Shown: positions 435-61,905 of the stretch, one piece after another
Layout: every line of letters begins with the position of its first letter
How positions within the stretch are numbered: the first letter of the stretch is position 1
Source of the DNA: Chaetoderma sp. LZ-2023a
Lineage: Eukaryota; Mollusca; Caudofoveata; Chaetodermatida; Chaetodermatidae
Reading direction: 5' to 3'
Assembly: GCA_034401795.1 (NCBI GenBank)
Contig: CM067359.1
Coordinates: forward strand, 147,318,233-147,382,232
Length of the DNA: 64,000 nucleotides
Translations under genes and position numbers: made by a program
Notes under the pieces: model-generated
Seen by the model: the letters and a program-made list of their open reading frames with translations, nothing else
What the model was told of the DNA's origin: nothing
Database searches by the model: none

Positions 435-32094
<31,660 letters not shown>

Positions 32095-35233: not shown

Positions 35234-35773
35234 CATAACATTATCAGATTGTACGCTCTCTATCTAACCTCGTGATATTAGAGACCGCATAACATTATCA
35301 GATTGTACGCTCTCTATTTAACCTCGTGATATTAGAGACCGCATAACATTATCAGATTGTACGCTCTCTATTTAACCTCGTGATATTAGAGACCGCATAA
35401 CATTATCACATTGTACGCTCTCTATTTAACCTCGTGATATTAGAGACCGCATAACATTATCAGATTGTACGCTCTCTATTTAACCTCGTGATATTAGAGA
35501 CCGCATAACATTATCACATTGTACGCTCTCTATTTAACCTCGTGATATTAGAGACCGCATAACATTATCAGATTGTACGCTCTCTATTTAACCTCGTGAT
35601 ATTAGAGACCGCATAACATTATCAGATTGTACGCTCTCTATTTAACCTCGTGATATTAGAGACCGCATAACATTATCAGATTGTACGCTCTCTATTTAAC
35701 CTCGTGATATTAGAGACCGCATAACATTATCAGATTGTACGCTCTCTATTTAACCTCGTGATATTAGAGACCG
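35234..35773. repeat. Satellite: exactly ten copies of a 54-bp unit
   Basis: Unit boundaries CATAACATTATCA recur every 54 bp from 35234 to 35774. Copies are almost identical; unit 1 has TATCTAAC for TATTTAAC and two units (starting ~35396 and ~35504) have ATCACATTG for ATCAGATTG. Part of the unit, CTCTCTATTTAACC, contains no hairpin of note. Confidence 0.97.
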
Positions 35774-36221
35774 CATAAGATAACAATACACTAGTTTCAG
35801 CAACAGAAAATGTAACACCTCCAAGCAAAATTGTTTATTTTGATCTTTTTTAAATTTTAATTATTTCGCAACCATTCGAGGGATCACTTCAAGTTAGAGC
35901 CATGGCTCAAATCCATATAGATATAAGCAGTCAATTAAACAAAGCGGAAGAGCGAATCATTTGTATATGTGTCACAATCAACAACTTAGCTCTCTACTGT
36001 TCAAGAGCTGAGCCGGGATTTGTCTCTAAAACTGGAGCTTAAAGCTCTTAAATTCAAACATCATTTTTTAAAATCTGCATTTATTTTTTAGGCACAATTT
36101 ACATATTATGATTGCAGCAGGGCTAGTAGTTAACTATTTTAGACTAGTTGGTGATTGTGTGACATCAGGGCCGTATGAATGATTTTCAAAAAGAAGGGGC
36201 CAAGAACTTATGAGCGGAATT

Positions 36222-36491
<270 letters not shown>

Positions 36492-41936: not shown

Positions 41937-42337
41937 TAACGGACCTTTCCAATTTATGCATCCATCATCTGACGTTATATGACGTCATAATAACCTAAGT
42001 GACGTGTAGGAAGACGCCATAATTATTTATGACATGAATGCCTAGATTTAGTCCATCTTTAACGCTTAATAGTCTGACACGTTGTACGAATTGTATGGCT
42101 TTACCATTTAATAAACATGCTGTTGAATATTTTGAAACTAGTTTGACTGGTCGATGTTTCTGCCATATAGGCAGCAACAGCATCCAGTCAAATTAGTTTC
42201 AAAATATGTAACAGCTTACCCGTATAGTTTTCTTGAAATTGAGATTTAGAGAGTTCAGAGATCGATCGATCTCAACACGAGCGATGTGGAGATTAGCTAG
42301 AGATGAGCGGCGCATAGCTAACACTGGAAAGGTTCAT
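41937..42337 (+). mobile_element. Hairpin MITE family A, full-length reference copy
   Basis: Ends TAACGGACCTTTCC and GGAAAGGTTCATTA are inverted repeats. Inside, in order: TGACGTCA (41980), GTGACGTGTAGGAAGACG, CATGAATGCCTAG, TTGTACGAATTGTATG, the hairpin 42121-42213, GATCGATCGATC and the GCTAGAGATG block. About 400 bp and non-coding, so a MITE that must be moved by another element. Confidence 0.85.
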
Positions 42338-44330: not shown

Positions 44331-47300
44331 CTGTAAAAAACCCAATCGTAATAAAGAGAGTACGTGGAGATCAGGATTGTGAATTATTATGGGGGTGGGT
44401 GGGGGGGGGGGGGTGGGGGTTGTGTGTGTCTAACTATCTAACTAGATACATAAACACAACTAGAGAACACTTACTGAAGTAACTGTAAATCTGCGATGAC
44501 TGAGGATTAAGGATTATTGCGAGTTTTTTTTAATAATATAACCATTGAACACATCCGGTGCTGGTGCTGATCCGGGAACGTATAGATGCAGCCGCAGTTC
44601 AAAGATCCATAGTTGAAATTCACATATGTTTACTGTGGGCATGAAAAAGCTGATTTCTCGAAAAGTGATATCGTTGACTACTAAAAGGTCACCTTGACCC
44701 TAAAGGATAAAATAATGTGTCTTCTAACACGCTCTTTGAAGGTGTATGATGAAAGGGAGATCACTTATGCGAAACGTGATAGTTAGAAATTCTGACCTGC
44801 AAATGACCTTGACCCCAAGGGAGATATTCAAATTTTCATTGGCAATTAGTTACCTGACCAGGTTTGAATAGAATCGGAATAAAACTCTAGGAGAAAACGC
44901 AGTTCAAACATTGCTCTACTATATGTGGCACGGAAAAACTGATTTCTTAATTTTGGCGGGCATTTAGAAAAAAAAAATTGTTATCCCGAGTCCATTTCTG
45001 CAAAAAACGAAAACTGGTATTTTTGACCAAAATGGCGGCCATATTGAAAAAAACCCAACCCCATCCTCACCAATTATCGTAGTGATCCGATCAAAACGCT
45101 ACCTGGAGTAGCAGTTTAAAGAGCAATACTGAAAACCCTAATACATTTCCTATGGGACTTTTTTGCCAACTCAAAGGTGGGTAGCTCGAAAACCATTGGG
45201 CCGTTATAAAATAAAAGTAATAGTTACTACGAGTTGGTAAAGTTTAGAGTTGATCGGGTGGAAACTGTAAGAGGCGATAGGTGGCAAAAATCGTGAAGAA
45301 TAATAAGAATAAGAAAGATCATGAGTACAAATAATAATCTGCGAGTTCGTCGCAGATTAATTACTTAGATAATACGACGACCCTATACTGCTGTTGGTAA
45401 ATATGAAATTATTCCACAATGTAGGCCTATATAGTCCAGTAAAACTACAAATTAACCTAGAACAAATTCCAACAGAATTTATTTCTTTTCTGCGGCATTC
45501 ATGGGAATGCCAGGTGTCACATATCAAAAGTCCTCCAAAATCCCTCGATGGGAAAGTGGGTAAATTTGCATATTTAGCTACCGCCATTATCCGAATAATG
45601 AAACTTCCCTTACCTGCTTCATTCCGCAAATAAACGAAGTAGAAATGTTGTCTAAGCTCTGAATTTCATGGTCACGGAAGACAGTAAGCAATTGGCAATA
45701 TTGCCTTGAACCACTTGTACAAATTCTCCAAACCACAGATTAAATATGGTTGTATGCACAGGGCCGGGGTAATTTAAAAAAATTATATTTAAAGTAAGTT
45801 TAATTTTGTTTTTCGCTTTTAAAATTTTATCTAAAATAAATTGCATTTTAATTTTCACTTTTATCTCACAATTTGAATAAATTTCTATACAATTCAATCA
45901 GAATATGGACATGGATTTAGATACGTGCGTTATTTGTAACCAGAGCCTAGAAAATGGCTCACAAACTGTTAAGCTTCGAGTTAAAGGCTGTGACGGTATT
46001 AACAATGCTAGCAGAGCCCGTGAAAGCGATGTCATAGCTGAAGTAGGACAGAGGGTTCATGTAAAATGTCGACGGGAGTTCATTGATCCCAAGCGGATTG
46101 CCCGTGACGCAGAGAAAATTGAACAATCACCGCCACCCATGCGAACACTCCGTTCAGAAAGTCCAACATTCAATTTTAGTGAACATTGTTTGCTATGCGG
46201 ATACCCTGCAAAAATTCAAGATGGAAAGAAACGTGGCTATGATATTTATCCAGTAAGTACTCATGACTTTCAATGTAGTATCGCCGAGGCCTGTGAGCAG
46301 AGAAAAGACGAATGGGGCAAACTTGTAGCTGGGCGGCTTGCCTTCACGCCGGATTTATGCGTTGTCAATGCAGTATACCATCAAAGCTGCAGCGTAAATT
46401 TTCGAACCATGAAAAATATCCCTCAGCTGCACTCATCTTGCTCATCCCAAAAACATGGAAGGCCAGAAGACTTGGACAGAGTAAGAGCATTTAGTGCGAC
46501 AATGGCATTTCTTGAAAATAATGATGATGAGCAGCTGACCCTGCACGACCTCGTTAATAAAATGCAAGAGTATCTCGATGATAAAGAGAATAAAGCATAC
46601 AGTACAAAATACATGCAGGATAAAATAAAAGATAATTATGGCGATGAAATATTTATTAGCGCTGTGAATGGTAAGCCAAACGTTGTTACCTTTCGTTCTA
46701 AAGCATCTACTATTTTGACTGACTTCTATAAGGAACAGAAGACAAAGGATTCCAAATCAGAGAGCATGCTAATCATCCAGACAGCTGCCAAACTGCTTAG
46801 ACACGATATTAAGTTAATTGATTCATGCACATCATCTGAAAGCTATCCATCAAGGGAGCAAATGAGCGACCCAGTAAAGGCACTGAATTATTTACCACAG
46901 ACACTGCGGGAATTATTGCGGATTTTGTTTACTGGAAAAGACACAGAAATGAAACAGGCATCAGTTGGACAGGCTATTATGCAAGGAACTCGTCCTAGAG
47001 TTATTTTGGCACCTTTGCAGTTCGGGCTGTCATGTGAGATGCACCATAAATTTGGATCTAGATTTATTGTTGACACCTTGTACAAGCCCGGATTTGGATG
47101 TTCATACGCGGAGATACAGAGGTTTGAGCGCAGTGCATCACTTCATGGTGGAGATCTACCACAGCCATTATCAGGCGAGTTCATTCAGTTTGTTGCCGAC
47201 AATGTGGATCACAATATTTGCACAATAGATGAGCATAATACATTTCATGGAATGGGAATCATTGCATCTGTTACACCAGGAAACCTTTCGTGCAAACTTA

Positions 47301-50300
47301 TTCCAAGGATAAATGTAACATCTGAAGATATCAAGCAAGTTGGCAAGATCTGTATCAGGAACTTTGAGTCTCAGCATACCAGGAACTTCCCATTGACCTT
47401 TAAGGAGTTACCTGCGATGGAACAAACAGACCCAACAGCTGACATTGACATGCGTTCAAGGAGACAGTCATGGTCTGGCATGATGCAAACTGTTCACCAA
47501 GGAGTTTATCCAGGTAAATCGTCTGTTATTTTCCTTCCGATGATAGATCTAGAGCCAAGTAACATGACCTGCATCTTTTCCACTTTGACTTATGTTTGTG
47601 AACAGGAAAACCGATACCATGTTGCACCCGTGATTACATTTGATCAGCCCTTATTTTGGAAAGCTATGACTATCATAGAGATTGAGCCGAGCTGGAGTCC
47701 ATTAAAGCAAATTATTCTAAGACTCGGAGGTCTTCATATGGAGATGAGCTTCCTTGGCTGCATTGGTCACTTAATGGCAGGAAGCGGTCTTGCGCCTATT
47801 CTAGAGGTAGTCTACGCTGAGAATGCTGTAAAACACATTCTTAGTGGAAAGGCAATTTCTCGAGCAGTTCGAGGACACCTCATGGTTTTTGCTTCTCTCA
47901 GTACAATCTTGATTGCAAATGCATACAACCTACCACTACCTACAATTGCAGATGCTGAAGTTGACACAGTAGAATATTCCGCTGCAATGCATTCAAAAGA
48001 ATTGTTTGACAATGATGATAATGTTGCAGGACATGAAACGATTGAAAGTTCCCTAAATAAAAGTCTGGTTAAAGTTGGAGAGCTCTATGATGACATTATC
48101 AAAAATCCGTATGTAGCTACAAGATTGTCCTCGGAAAATGCATTACATGATGTCAAGGACAAACTAGACTCAGAGAAGGTGGTCATGAGAGATAAGAGGA
48201 CTGCACGACTCTGGCTTTTGTATATGGAGATGGTTGACATTCTGCGCAAATTCATTAAGGCAGAACGAACTGGTGATTGGAACATGCACCTTCAGACCGT
48301 TCATGAGATGCTTCCATATTTTGCAGCCGCTGGGCATAATCTGTACGCCAAGTCTGCATATGTATATTTACAAAAGATGTTAGAAATACCTGAAAGTCAT
48401 CCAGATATACACACCAGCTTCCTCAATGGTCATCATGTCATTCATCGAAGTGATTGGTATTGGGCAGGGTTATCTACTGATCTAGTTATTGAGCAGGTCC
48501 TTATGAGAAGTGTAAAGTCAAGTGGTGGTCTAACACGAGGTCGTGGAATGACAGAACTTCAGCGTCTTGTTTGGTTGTTGTCTATGCCCGCATGTGCAGA
48601 TGTGTGTAATGCAATGCAAGAGCTCTCTGGGGGTAAACTGTGATTCAAGTGAACAACACAAAGATTCCACACAATCTCGAATAAAGCATGATATGGATGA
48701 TACTTACAAAATTCTCAAAATCCTTAGTGAACTGAATCCATTTGGACCAGACCCTTCTCTTAGAGGACTTGTTAGTGGATTGTCTGCACATGAATCAGTC
48801 AATGTTGACGATGCTAAAGATATTGGAGAATCAATTATTAATTCGATGTGTGGCCAATGTGTATCAAGCATTTCGTTCCAGAGAAAGAGACAAGCTATTA
48901 CCTTAGCATCCAAAACATCTCTCAAGATTGAGGATGAATGTGTACAAATTGATCCACAACTCCTATTTCAAAGACTCAGTTTAATTGCTACAAATGGATC
49001 AGCATCTTATTTTGAGTATGAGTTGTGCACTCATCCGCCCGCACTCTTTGATAATTCATCTCTTCCATGGGAAGCAAATAAGCCGGCACTTGCTGATGCA
49101 TTGTGGAAATTAATTCAAAATGAAGATGCAGTCCTTCCAGATTCTGTCCACTATGTGCTTGATGGAGGAGCTCTATTACACCGTGTTCCATGGCAGCGTG
49201 GAGAGACATTTGCAAATGTTTGTCAAAGATATGTAAAATATTGCATAAGCAAATATGGAAAGGCTACAGTAGTTTTTGATGGTTATGACCAAGGCCCATA
49301 CATAAAGGATGTAACACATAAGAGGCGAACTCGTGGATCAGGCGCAACTGTTGTACTGACTCCGCAAACAGTTGTAACTCTGAGTAAGCCTGATTTTCTT
49401 AGTAACAAGCAGAACAAACATCGGTTCATAGCAATCTTAAGTTCATCTCTCGAACAGGCTGGATGCTTAACCATAAAGGCAAGCGGTGATGCTGATGTCT
49501 TAATTATGCAAACGGCTATCTTGGCTTCAAAGTCAACAAATACTGCTCTTGTTGGAGCCGATACCGACCTACTGGTGTTGCTTCTATACCATACTGATAT
49601 GAATGGCTGTCAGCTATTTTTCAGACCAGAGCCAAAGCAAAATGCAAAGAAACCCCGACTGTGGAATATCAAAATGGCAAAGGAAAAACTCGGGTTCTGT
49701 TTGTGCTCACAGCTATTATTTATCCACGCTATCCTTGGCTGGGACTCAACATCTAGGCTTTATGGAATTGGAAAATCTGCATCCCTTAGCAAAATCCAGT
49801 GCTGCAACGAACTCTCTCAAATTGCTGAAGTGTTTACAATGAGTAATGCGAATAAAGATGACGTGATAAAAGCAGGTGAGAAGGCAATGCTTATTCTATA
49901 CAATGGCACTTCAATGGATAGTCTAGTTGCTTTGCGGTACAAGCGATTCAGGAAGAAGGTTGCAAAAAGTTCCAAGTATGTTGAAACACGAGATTTACCA
50001 CCAACACCCGCATCCGCAAGGTTTCACAGTCTTCGCGTGTACTACCAAATTCAAGTTTGGAGAGGAGATGCTGGAGATATGGATCCAACAGAATGGGGCT
50101 GGAAAGTTCTCAACCACCAAATGCTGCCTGTTAAGACTGACATGCTGGCAGCACCTGACGATTTACTGTATTCATTTAGATGCAGCTGCAAAACTGGCTG
50201 TGAATCAAAGAGATGCACCTGTAGAAAACATGGGCTCAGCTGCACATCCGCCTGCGAAGACTGTAAGGGTCTCAGTTGCTAGAATTCAATAACGCTCATT

Positions 50301-53300
50301 GAGGAAGATGACTTGGATAATTGATGCAAGATGAAATTAGTAGAAACCAGGTACCTATGCCATACTATTTCATCTTAGCTTAGCTTAGAAACACACAATA
50401 CCGTGACATAATAAAATATAATATGTATTGTATCAATATCAATGATGGTATTAGGTAAATTCATGCAAGTGGCATAACACAATACATTTAATTTGTGGAG
50501 AATATGTCAATCGTATTCATTTATTACTAAAAAAGTCCAAAAATACCCAGTCACACATATATTACATACCGGTTTTAAAGAAATAAAGAAAAATGGATTT
50601 TTCAGGTGAAATGGCCCAAATCTGGTAATAATTATGCAAATTTTACCCTTTCCCCTATTGGAATTTTGGAGGACTTTTGATATGTTGTACATGATGGCCC
50701 CCTATACACTGGGCGAGGTAAAAAAACTCTGTTGCAATTTGTTCCGGGTTAAAATATTTTTGGCCTAGATTGACTGGACTAATACTACCCAGTTTCATAG
50801 AGATTTAATACACTAGTGACGCCATAGTGCATGAGATAATGAACCTTTATAGGTTATCCATTCATCATATGACGTCATAATCAACTATGTGACGTGTAGG
50901 ATGACATCGTAATCCATGATGTCATGAATGGCGTAGATAAGTACGTCATGAATGCATAATTGAGGACGGACTAAGCGTTGTTGTACGAATTATATGTCCT
51001 TACCATTCAATAAACATTATTTTTGCATATTTTGAAACTAATTTGACTGGGCGCTGTTGCTGCCATAGGCAGCAACATCACCAAGTCAGATTAGTTTCAT
51101 AATATTCAACAGCTTACCTTTATAGTGTTCTGGAAATTTATAGTCAAGGCGTTCTGGGATCGATTGATCCAAACGTGGCGAAGCTTGGGTTGTGCTTAAC
51201 TAGGGATGCGAGGGGCATAGCTAAAACTGGAAAGGTCCGTTGTTATCTTGTGCACTTGAAACGCGCTACCAAATAAATTCTAGGGCCATCTCGTCAATGT
51301 TGGCTTTTAGTTTGATATCCGGATAATGATTGTTCAAAATGGCGAAAGCTTGGTTAAATTCTTCCATTGTATGATGCCAAATAATGAAAATATCGTCGAG
51401 GTACCTGCGGTAAAAGAGCGGCTTTTGTGGACATTTGCTAAGTGCATCCTCCTCCGCTACATAAATGTTGGCAAAACCTGGACTAAAACTCGTACCCGTT
51501 GCGTAGAAAATTTTTTATTGGTAAGTTTCACCCGCTAATCCAAAATCAGTACCCTTTAAGCTTTTAGTCTAAGACAGCTAATATTTCGTCAGTGCCCAGT
51601 GAGCCTGTTGTTATCTGAATACTTTTCCAACGCTTTACGGACAGAAGTCAGACGTTTTTAGATGTCAATGTTTGTGTATATAGCATCGATGTCAAGTGTA
51701 ACCAAAATGAATATGGATGCATTGAAATCTCAGAGACCTGAGATAGAAAGTGATCCGTGTTAAAATTCCAGTGGCAAAATCTAAAACACCAGTCCTCTGC
51801 TGATCCGCAAATGGACAACTGCTAAAGCAGAGGTCGGTTTTTGCCGGCTTGGCAATGAAAAGGTTAATATATATCCCGCTGGATGCGTCGAGACCAATCT
51901 GACCGGGATACGTGGCTGCCATAGGTCTGTAAATAATCAACAGTTGTTGTATTGGAATGGTATTCTGGTACCTCTGAGCCCAATGACGCGAGACAAGGTC
52001 TATGAGGCCCGATTTATAAGTCGAACTTCTCTTGTGCCGTGCCAGCTAAATTTGCCTATACAAATCAATCAGTCGTCATTAGCGCGGCGCGACAGAAAGT
52101 TCGACTTATAAAATGCGCCTCACTTGACTATCCCATCTGTTTTTATCACCCACTTTTGTTTGGCCATAAGCATGTTTCACTATATGCCACGTAGGACATT
52201 TCACGAGGTCAAACTTGCCAAGTGAATGCAATTGCATTGTTATTGGGGCACGGTCACTGTCATCGTCATTACTGTTATTGTCACTGCTATTATAGTGAAC
52301 TCGTTGTCGTTGTTGTTATTGTTAGTGGCTGTATATTACTGATTTTGAAGCTTTTCTTAGGCATATGGAGTTTTGCGAAGTAGTTAGTGATGAGTCTAAT
52401 AAAGCTACAGAGGTTAGTCAATAGTTTATATTTCTTTGGAGAGAATAGTTGTAGAAACATATGATAGTTTGGCTTCACATTGTAATATCTTGGGAGTCAT
52501 TTCTTTGCGGTTTTCCTTAAAGAATTCGCATGTTATGAAGTAGTGGCATTCTTTGGATGCATAATGTACATTTTCTTTCCTCTTGCACTGCCTCATCCTA
52601 TCTTCTTATTTCTTGTGGCAAATGGTTTCTTGCTGTTCAAAACCTAGTGAATGTTATTCTGTTGTAGTCTAACAACTATGCGAGCGTAAATATGGGGGTA
52701 ATAGACGCGCGAGACTTGAGAACGTATATAGCTAATTGATCAATTTGCGTTGAGTAGAACTCGTTCAATCATCTAAAATAGGTTGTAAGCCGCTTGTAGA
52801 AGTAACTAAGTATGTATGTGTCCGTACATATGGCGTAAGTTAGCACTAGGAGCTCTAATTTTACAATGTGTATTTAACCTCCCAAACACGCCATATACAC
52901 CATTCGATTAAAGACGGAAATGTGACGGAACTGTTGTTTGCATCAGCGACTTCCATATATAGCCCCGCAGCTTTGGTTAGCTTAGAAACGACCACCCAGC
53001 CCAAACATTACTAAGCAGTGTCATATATCAAAATAAAGCTAATGACAGCAGGATCCAGGAACTGGATGATGGCAGTTTGTGAAAATCTGACAAGTTGAAA
53101 TAATTAACCATTTATCTATCAAGTTATAACAAGGAATATACACAATTTGAAGAAAGACATCAATTTACTCATTGATTAAACCAATAGACCTTTCCAGAGT
53201 AATGACGTTATATGACGTCATAATCAGCTAAACGGCGTGTAGGATGACGTCATGATCAGTGTGCCATAAATGATTCTATTAGGCTCGGCTTTAACTCTTA

Positions 53301-61544: not shown

Positions 61545-61905
61545 CCAGAGTATTCATCGATCATCTGACCTCGTATGACGTCATAATCAGCTCAGCGGGT
61601 GTATGATGACGTCACAATCATTACGTCACAAAGGGTTCCATATAGACCGTCATCAAATCTCAGAGTTTGACACGTTGTATAAATTAAATGTCTTTGTAAT
61701 TCTTTGCCATGTGAAAAGCATGCTATCTTTAGGCAGCAACAGCACCCAGTCAAATTAGTTTCAAAATATTCAACAGCTTACCTTTGTAGTTTTTTGGGAA
61801 ATTGATAGTCAGCGTGTTCAGAGATCGATCGATCCCAACACGAGCAAATTGTGGGTGGAGCTTAACTCGAGATGGGCGGGCATAGATAAAACTGGAAAGG
61901 GCCAT
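61545..61905 (+). mobile_element. Hairpin MITE family A, left hairpin arm lost
   Basis: TGACGTCA at 61576 and 61607, GACACGTTGTATAAATTAAATG, then directly the right hairpin arm (61728-61776), GATCGATCGATCCCAACACG and a tail ending ACTGGAAAGGGCC. Confidence 0.8.

Follow-up and report, generated by a model that had tools for sequence, protein, structure and literature searches.

The locus described here raises the question of whether a long gene bracketed by inverted repeats, found in a 64,000-nucleotide stretch of contig CM067359.1 of Chaetoderma sp. LZ-2023a (we refer to the whole of this stretch as the window, and number positions from its first letter), is a mobile element, and whether it is of a new kind as an earlier note made from the sequence alone had suggested. 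The element occupies exactly positions 45432–50781 of the window (5,350 bp), with the ends TAGTCCAGT...ACTGGACTA and a 3-bp target-site duplication, ATA. We are confident that it is a decayed copy from a class II DNA transposon family which is young, numbers many copies and belongs to the AcademX lineage of the Academ superfamily, and it is most likely a new member of a family type already described rather than the founder of a new superfamily. The features which define its limits are:

45429–45431 (unstranded): left target-site duplication ATA, equal to 50782–50784
45432–45601 (+ strand): left terminal inverted repeat, imperfect and gapped, about 150–170 bp, starting TAGTCCAGT, from end-to-end alignment and genome matches
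45520–45541 (+ strand): 22-bp perfect inverted-repeat block, left
50612–50781 (− strand): right terminal inverted repeat, ending ACTGGACTA, from end-to-end alignment and genome matches
50663–50684 (− strand): 22-bp perfect inverted-repeat block, right
50782–50784 (unstranded): right target-site duplication ATA, equal to 45429–45431

The inverted repeats had been recognised earlier from the letters of the window, and the 22-bp perfect block was found exactly where it had been placed. The arms at 45519–45556 and 50648–50685 are 87% complementary over 38 nt, with one neighbouring arm pair besides, and the outermost 9 bp, TAGTCCAGT, form a perfect inverted match when the two ends are aligned. Both of the borders proposed at 45432 and 50781 are exact, and the repeats are real element ends, because 34 other copies stop at identical bases with 3-bp duplications.

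These copies were found by searching the window's own assembly (2.44 Gb in 2,753 contigs). Genome-wide, the left 169 bases of the element gave 953 first-look candidates, and the 40 which were scored are all 98–100% identical, while the right 132 bases gave 962 candidates with 99–100% identity amongst the 40 scored. The 39 scored left-end places (5.8 kb each) plus the window copy provided a set of 40 loci, and both ends were found in 35 of these (L014, L019, L030, L044 and L047 were left out, having no right end within 5.8 kb). An exact 3-bp direct repeat lies immediately outside the shared ends in 35/35 two-ended copies and a 4-bp repeat in 0/35; as a control, pairing the left flank of one copy with the right flank of another gives the same 3 bp in 96 of 1,190 pairs. 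The duplicated triplets are A+T-rich, with TAT seen in nine of the 35 copies. Two of the copies, L038 and L039, lie about 130 kb apart on one contig with identical flanks and lengths of 4,080 and 5,314 bp. This is a local duplication of one insertion with one copy internally deleted, and because the flanks are common to both we count 34 independent loci rather than 35. Amongst the loci left out, L014 contains about 1.07 kb of foreign DNA with 8 bp of the element on both sides, which is possibly a nested insertion, and a right end is present at a fitting place among the right-end genome matches.

The window also contains an uninterrupted counterpart of the site into which another copy of the family has inserted. 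That copy is L028, which is 2,764 bp long and precedes the window by about 42 kb on the same contig:

31359–31636 (+ strand): paralogous empty target site for L028 (left flank 31359–31503, 94%; right flank 31501–31636, 90%; overlap TAT)

The two flank matches overlap by exactly 3 bases, TAT, and once joined, the flanks form a continuous alignment across 31359–31636 from which the element is absent (265 identities, 13 mismatches, 9 gap positions), making this a clean paralogous empty site. A weak test was provided by the joined flanks of L026, which matched their own two flanks, one diverged place (66%) across the junction, and two further places by the left flank only. The family therefore has the features of a class II transposon, including common ends, a fixed-length duplication and one paralogous empty site, and its past mobility is well proven. 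The view that this is a self-moving DNA transposon, which the earlier note had drawn from the flanks and from relics, is now backed by these features together with the deletion derivatives described below; the genome holds many copies rather than one (as the coding matches also indicate), and the ends are shared by 34 of them besides the window copy.

The same evidence bears on whether this might be a host gene or a domesticated transposase lying by chance between repeats. The length of the protein and the conservation of its motifs across many animals would suit a host gene, but near-identical copies are found on many contigs, 23 of 31 scored coding copies have stops, and the shared ends with 3-bp duplications in 35/35 copies and the empty site for L028 lead us to reject this explanation for the family, leaving it a negligible chance.

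Pairwise divergence over the terminal 600 bases of the 35 copies has a median of 1.5% and a range of 0.2–10.8%, values which overstate youth as the loci were picked by similarity. Fifteen of the copies are longer than 5,250 bp, one of them (L015) only through an insertion into a deleted copy, and just one of the 15, L040, matches residues 1–1484 of P0001 in one frame with no stop (P0001 is an intact relative of 1,484 amino acids which we use as the reference for residue numbering). The remaining 20 copies are 2,764–4,147 bp long. We identified 21 internal-deletion junctions and at 16 of these there are at least 3 bp of shared sequence, compared with 6% when junctions are placed at random in this element (note that the junction overlaps were taken from BLAST ends and are possibly inflated). 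One deletion is common to L011 and L031, whose flanks differ; this is most simply explained by the mobilisation of a shortened derivative, though the deletion may instead have recurred at the same 26-bp overlap. Coding matches to P0001 produced 21,694 first-look candidates genome-wide, and 8/31 of those scored have no internal stop while 23/31 do, these counts being lower bounds. The multicopy relics which had been claimed earlier are thus borne out across the genome; inside the window there is just one old related scrap, at 5509–5697 on the − strand (38% identical to P0001 residues 622–684, E 1.5e-6), which is probably an older related element.

The gene within the window copy is placed by tblastn with P0001:

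45905–50321 (+ strand): transposase–nuclease gene, broken (residues 1–917 at 45905–48631 and 917–1484 at 48630–50321)

The two parts are 97.7% and 97.0% identical to P0001, respectively. Read from stop to stop, the window has frames of 920 codons to 48643 and 576 codons at 48552–50282, and the defects of the gene are a frame switch near 48630, an in-frame stop at 50280–50282 beyond which the match to P0001 continues to 50321, and small in-frame losses. The window copy is broken because of the frame switch and the stop. The description of a long intronless gene consequently holds in part: there are no introns, with 31/31 scored genome matches running in one stretch from residue 1 or 2 to 1484 of P0001, but the window does not contain a single open frame. 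We had also considered whether a metal ligand of the nuclease had been lost from the window copy, and this was dropped as the changed residue adjoins the D-T-D pair, which is intact in the translation.

Relatives of the protein in other organisms numbered 338 for its first part and 345 for its second (from the 8,000 best candidates scored), and the best 120 of each were listed, most of them without an organism name. The named relatives in these lists include cnidarians (corals and an anemone; Porites, Montipora and Actinostola), molluscs (Mytilus, Mercenaria, Mizuhopecten, Pinctada, Mya, Patella and Littorina), a sea spider, a stomatopod, a hagfish and fishes, with bivalves providing 8 of the 13 organism-named relatives among the best 120 of 338. 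This taxonomic spread is consistent with a transposon. The length limits of the search favoured shorter relatives of the second part, and such proteins do not amount to evidence of a free-standing nuclease. One record from the sea spider Nymphon striatum (P0182), named as ERO1-like protein beta and assigned to Pfam PF04137, matched the nuclease part (45% over 99% of the query) and is either a gene-model merger or a host–transposon fusion. Single-protein queries found no relative amongst viral contigs (7 stretches matched a pattern and 0 were confirmed) or phage records.

Conservation was assessed using 32 relatives chosen by hand, mostly near full length, from the best 120 of the 338 matches, and allowed the following regions of the window copy to be distinguished (P0001 residue numbering):

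45926–46069 (+ strand): first C2HC-like zinc module (C11, H52 and C55 in 32/32; C8 in 30/32, with 2 gaps)
46187–46390 (+ strand): second C2HC-like zinc module (C95, C98, H159 and C162 in 32/32)
47198–48493 (+ strand): predicted DDE/RNase-H-like transposase core (proposed D at 47198–47200, D at 47642–47644 and E at 48491–48493)
49161–49745 (+ strand): Rad2/XPG (FEN1/Exo1)-type nuclease domain (profile match to Exonuclease 1 and acidic positions)
50181–50279 (+ strand): C-terminal CXC (tesmin/TSO1-like) nine-cysteine module (nine cysteines in 31/32, one gap)

The two C2HC-like modules, the DNVDHN motif, the FEN-like acidic motifs and the C-terminal cysteines had all been picked out in the earlier note, and each is kept in the chosen relatives. 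D432 (within DNVDHN), D588 (TFDQP), H619 and E871 (DLVIEQ) are invariant in 32/32, and D432, D588 and E871 are candidates for a DDE catalytic triad. Seven acidic positions of the nuclease part are kept in 31–32/32 relatives, and these we take to correspond to the metal-binding acids of FEN1 and Exo1. A profile search against the Protein Data Bank (PDB) returned Exonuclease 1 as the best match with a marginal E of 0.018 and as four of the five matches overall. As in Rad2/XPG nucleases, the FDG motif, an acidic pair before the second domain, DxD and GCD...GIG align with Exonuclease 1; unlike Exo1 and FEN1, the nuclease here forms a single domain within a larger transposon protein, and the similarity lies at the edge of detection. 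Some relatives are named 'Tesmin/TSO1-like CXC domain-containing protein' in their source records, and no Pfam match to the tesmin/TSO1-like CXC domain was obtained for the window, P0001 or the 32 relatives. Judged from these motifs, the protein probably combines a DDE transposase core with a Rad2/XPG-type nuclease and a CXC module.

Academ reportedly goes back to Kapitonov and Jurka in 2010 and AcademH to Kojima in 2020, and Academ proteins have been described as carrying an XPG nuclease together with a cysteine-rich finger. AcademH has its superfamily in common with AcademX. According to the available passages of a paper on IS481EU elements, AcademX elements have 3- or 4-bp duplications and AcademH elements 9- or 10-bp duplications, a difference linked to the encoded nuclease or helicase (PMC10045372). 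In the passages available from a survey of bivalves, Academ ranks with the better represented DDE/D groups and its curated elements have a mean length of 5,565 bp (PMC10294476), and the Repbase authors, in the part of their paper available, list Academ among the added superfamilies and cite a 2010 report (PMC4455052). We file the element under AcademX because of its length of 5,350 bp (close to the roughly 5.5 kb of Academ in bivalves), its 3-bp duplications, its Exo1/XPG-like nuclease and its bivalve relatives, and it resembles AcademX, as far as those passages describe it, in having inverted ends, a duplication of this length and an encoded nuclease. Amongst the features tested there was no difference from AcademX, and the CXC module is unmentioned for Academ in the literature passages, which were not searched specifically for it. 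AcademH itself was rejected, as the element differs from the printed description of a helicase and 9- or 10-bp duplications in having a nuclease, 3-bp duplications in 35/35 copies and no helicase family among its Pfam matches. Kolobok, a DDD/E transposon which like this element has inverted ends, was also rejected, as the available text gives it TTAA-specific 4-bp duplications (PMC9587614) and these were found in 0/35 copies. A whole-word literature search found no paper combining Academ, XPG, transposase and DNA transposon, and one of the papers searched names AcademX.

It should be noted that membership of Academ is indicated, not proved, and several observations weigh against the assignment or the youth of the family. 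The likeness of the element to Academ is drawn from printed features of the superfamily, and the fetched loci were the 40 most similar to the left end of the window copy, by which both youth and uniformity are biased upward. Pfam XPG_I was matched by just 1/32 relatives (E 0.013), and a single-sequence phmmer search of the second half of the protein against the PDB matched no nuclease, which emerged only with the profile search. The one Pfam family matched repeatedly was DUF6589, a domain of function unknown (14/32 relatives, best E 3.5e-6), for which both P0001 and the window score under the curated cut-off and of which no mention was found in the literature searched. Furthermore, we found relatives in the gastropods Patella and Littorina, whereas the available passages of the bivalve survey place Academ almost exclusively in bivalves amongst the molluscs analysed (PMC10294476). 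An undescribed superfamily, whose 3-bp duplication and nuclease are convergent with those of AcademX, would accommodate a likeness drawn from description, a core in which Pfam finds only DUF6589, the CXC module and the gastropod relatives. However, the element fits what those sources print for Academ and AcademX in the length of its duplication, its attached nuclease, its overall size and its presence in bivalves, and we regard a separate superfamily as improbable. The 'new' kind of DNA transposon proposed in the earlier note is consequently not borne out, as its list of comparisons had omitted Academ and the features of AcademX given in the passages of PMC10045372 match, and present evidence does not sustain a new superfamily. 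What that reading of the raw sequence did recognise correctly is a transposon family, most likely one of a known kind.

The most likely overall route for an AcademX element of this structure would be cut-and-paste. The N-terminal zinc modules, and perhaps also the CXC module, might bind the inverted ends of roughly 150 bp, and the DDE/RNase-H-type core would make cuts 3 bp apart on the two strands and join the DNA, resulting in the 3-bp target duplication, while the attached Exo1/FEN1-like nuclease may trim flaps or ends. The shared bases at the deletion junctions are compatible with gap repair that was aborted following excision and provide indirect support for cutting out. A replicative route in which the nuclease is the main cutting enzyme with no DDE step, which can overlap with Academ identity, would find some support in the high copy number and in the retention of the acidic residues in 31–32/32 relatives. 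Against this, D432, D588 and E871 are invariant in 32/32, and integration by a DDE enzyme is usually recognised by long inverted repeats together with duplications of fixed length; we therefore consider this route very improbable and favour cut-and-paste. As the acidic residues and cysteines are kept in 31–32/32 relatives from distant animals, the Exo1-like nuclease and CXC module might nonetheless do an essential chemical step in transposition, such as second-strand or integration-site flap cleavage, though we offer this tentatively and think it rather unlikely. If true, an essential Exo1-like nuclease would make this a two-nuclease transposition pathway, for which no biochemistry was met in the literature passages available.

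Several other repeats were observed in the window. A fold-back repeat lies just downstream of the element at 51023–51109 and has two 42-nt arms which are 86% complementary and 3 nt apart, and a short dispersed repeat at about 50864–50926, next to the element's right end, has five other matches in the window:

18905–18966, 22206–22256, 41977–42036, 53210–53257 and 61571–61628: dispersed-repeat matches, 77–83% alike to about 50864–50926

Further away there is a tandem array at 35234–35778 (54-bp unit, 10 copies, 98% matches) and a GT run at 36224–36490 (133.5 units, 100% matches).

With many near-identical copies (several of them stop-free), ends known to the base and one clean empty site, this young family is a good natural source for tests of how nuclease-bearing Academ elements move. 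The ends, duplication length and domain layout described here also provide an aid to the annotation of coral, mollusc and fish genes which at present carry the name 'Tesmin/TSO1-like CXC domain-containing protein' or are labelled 'hypothetical'.

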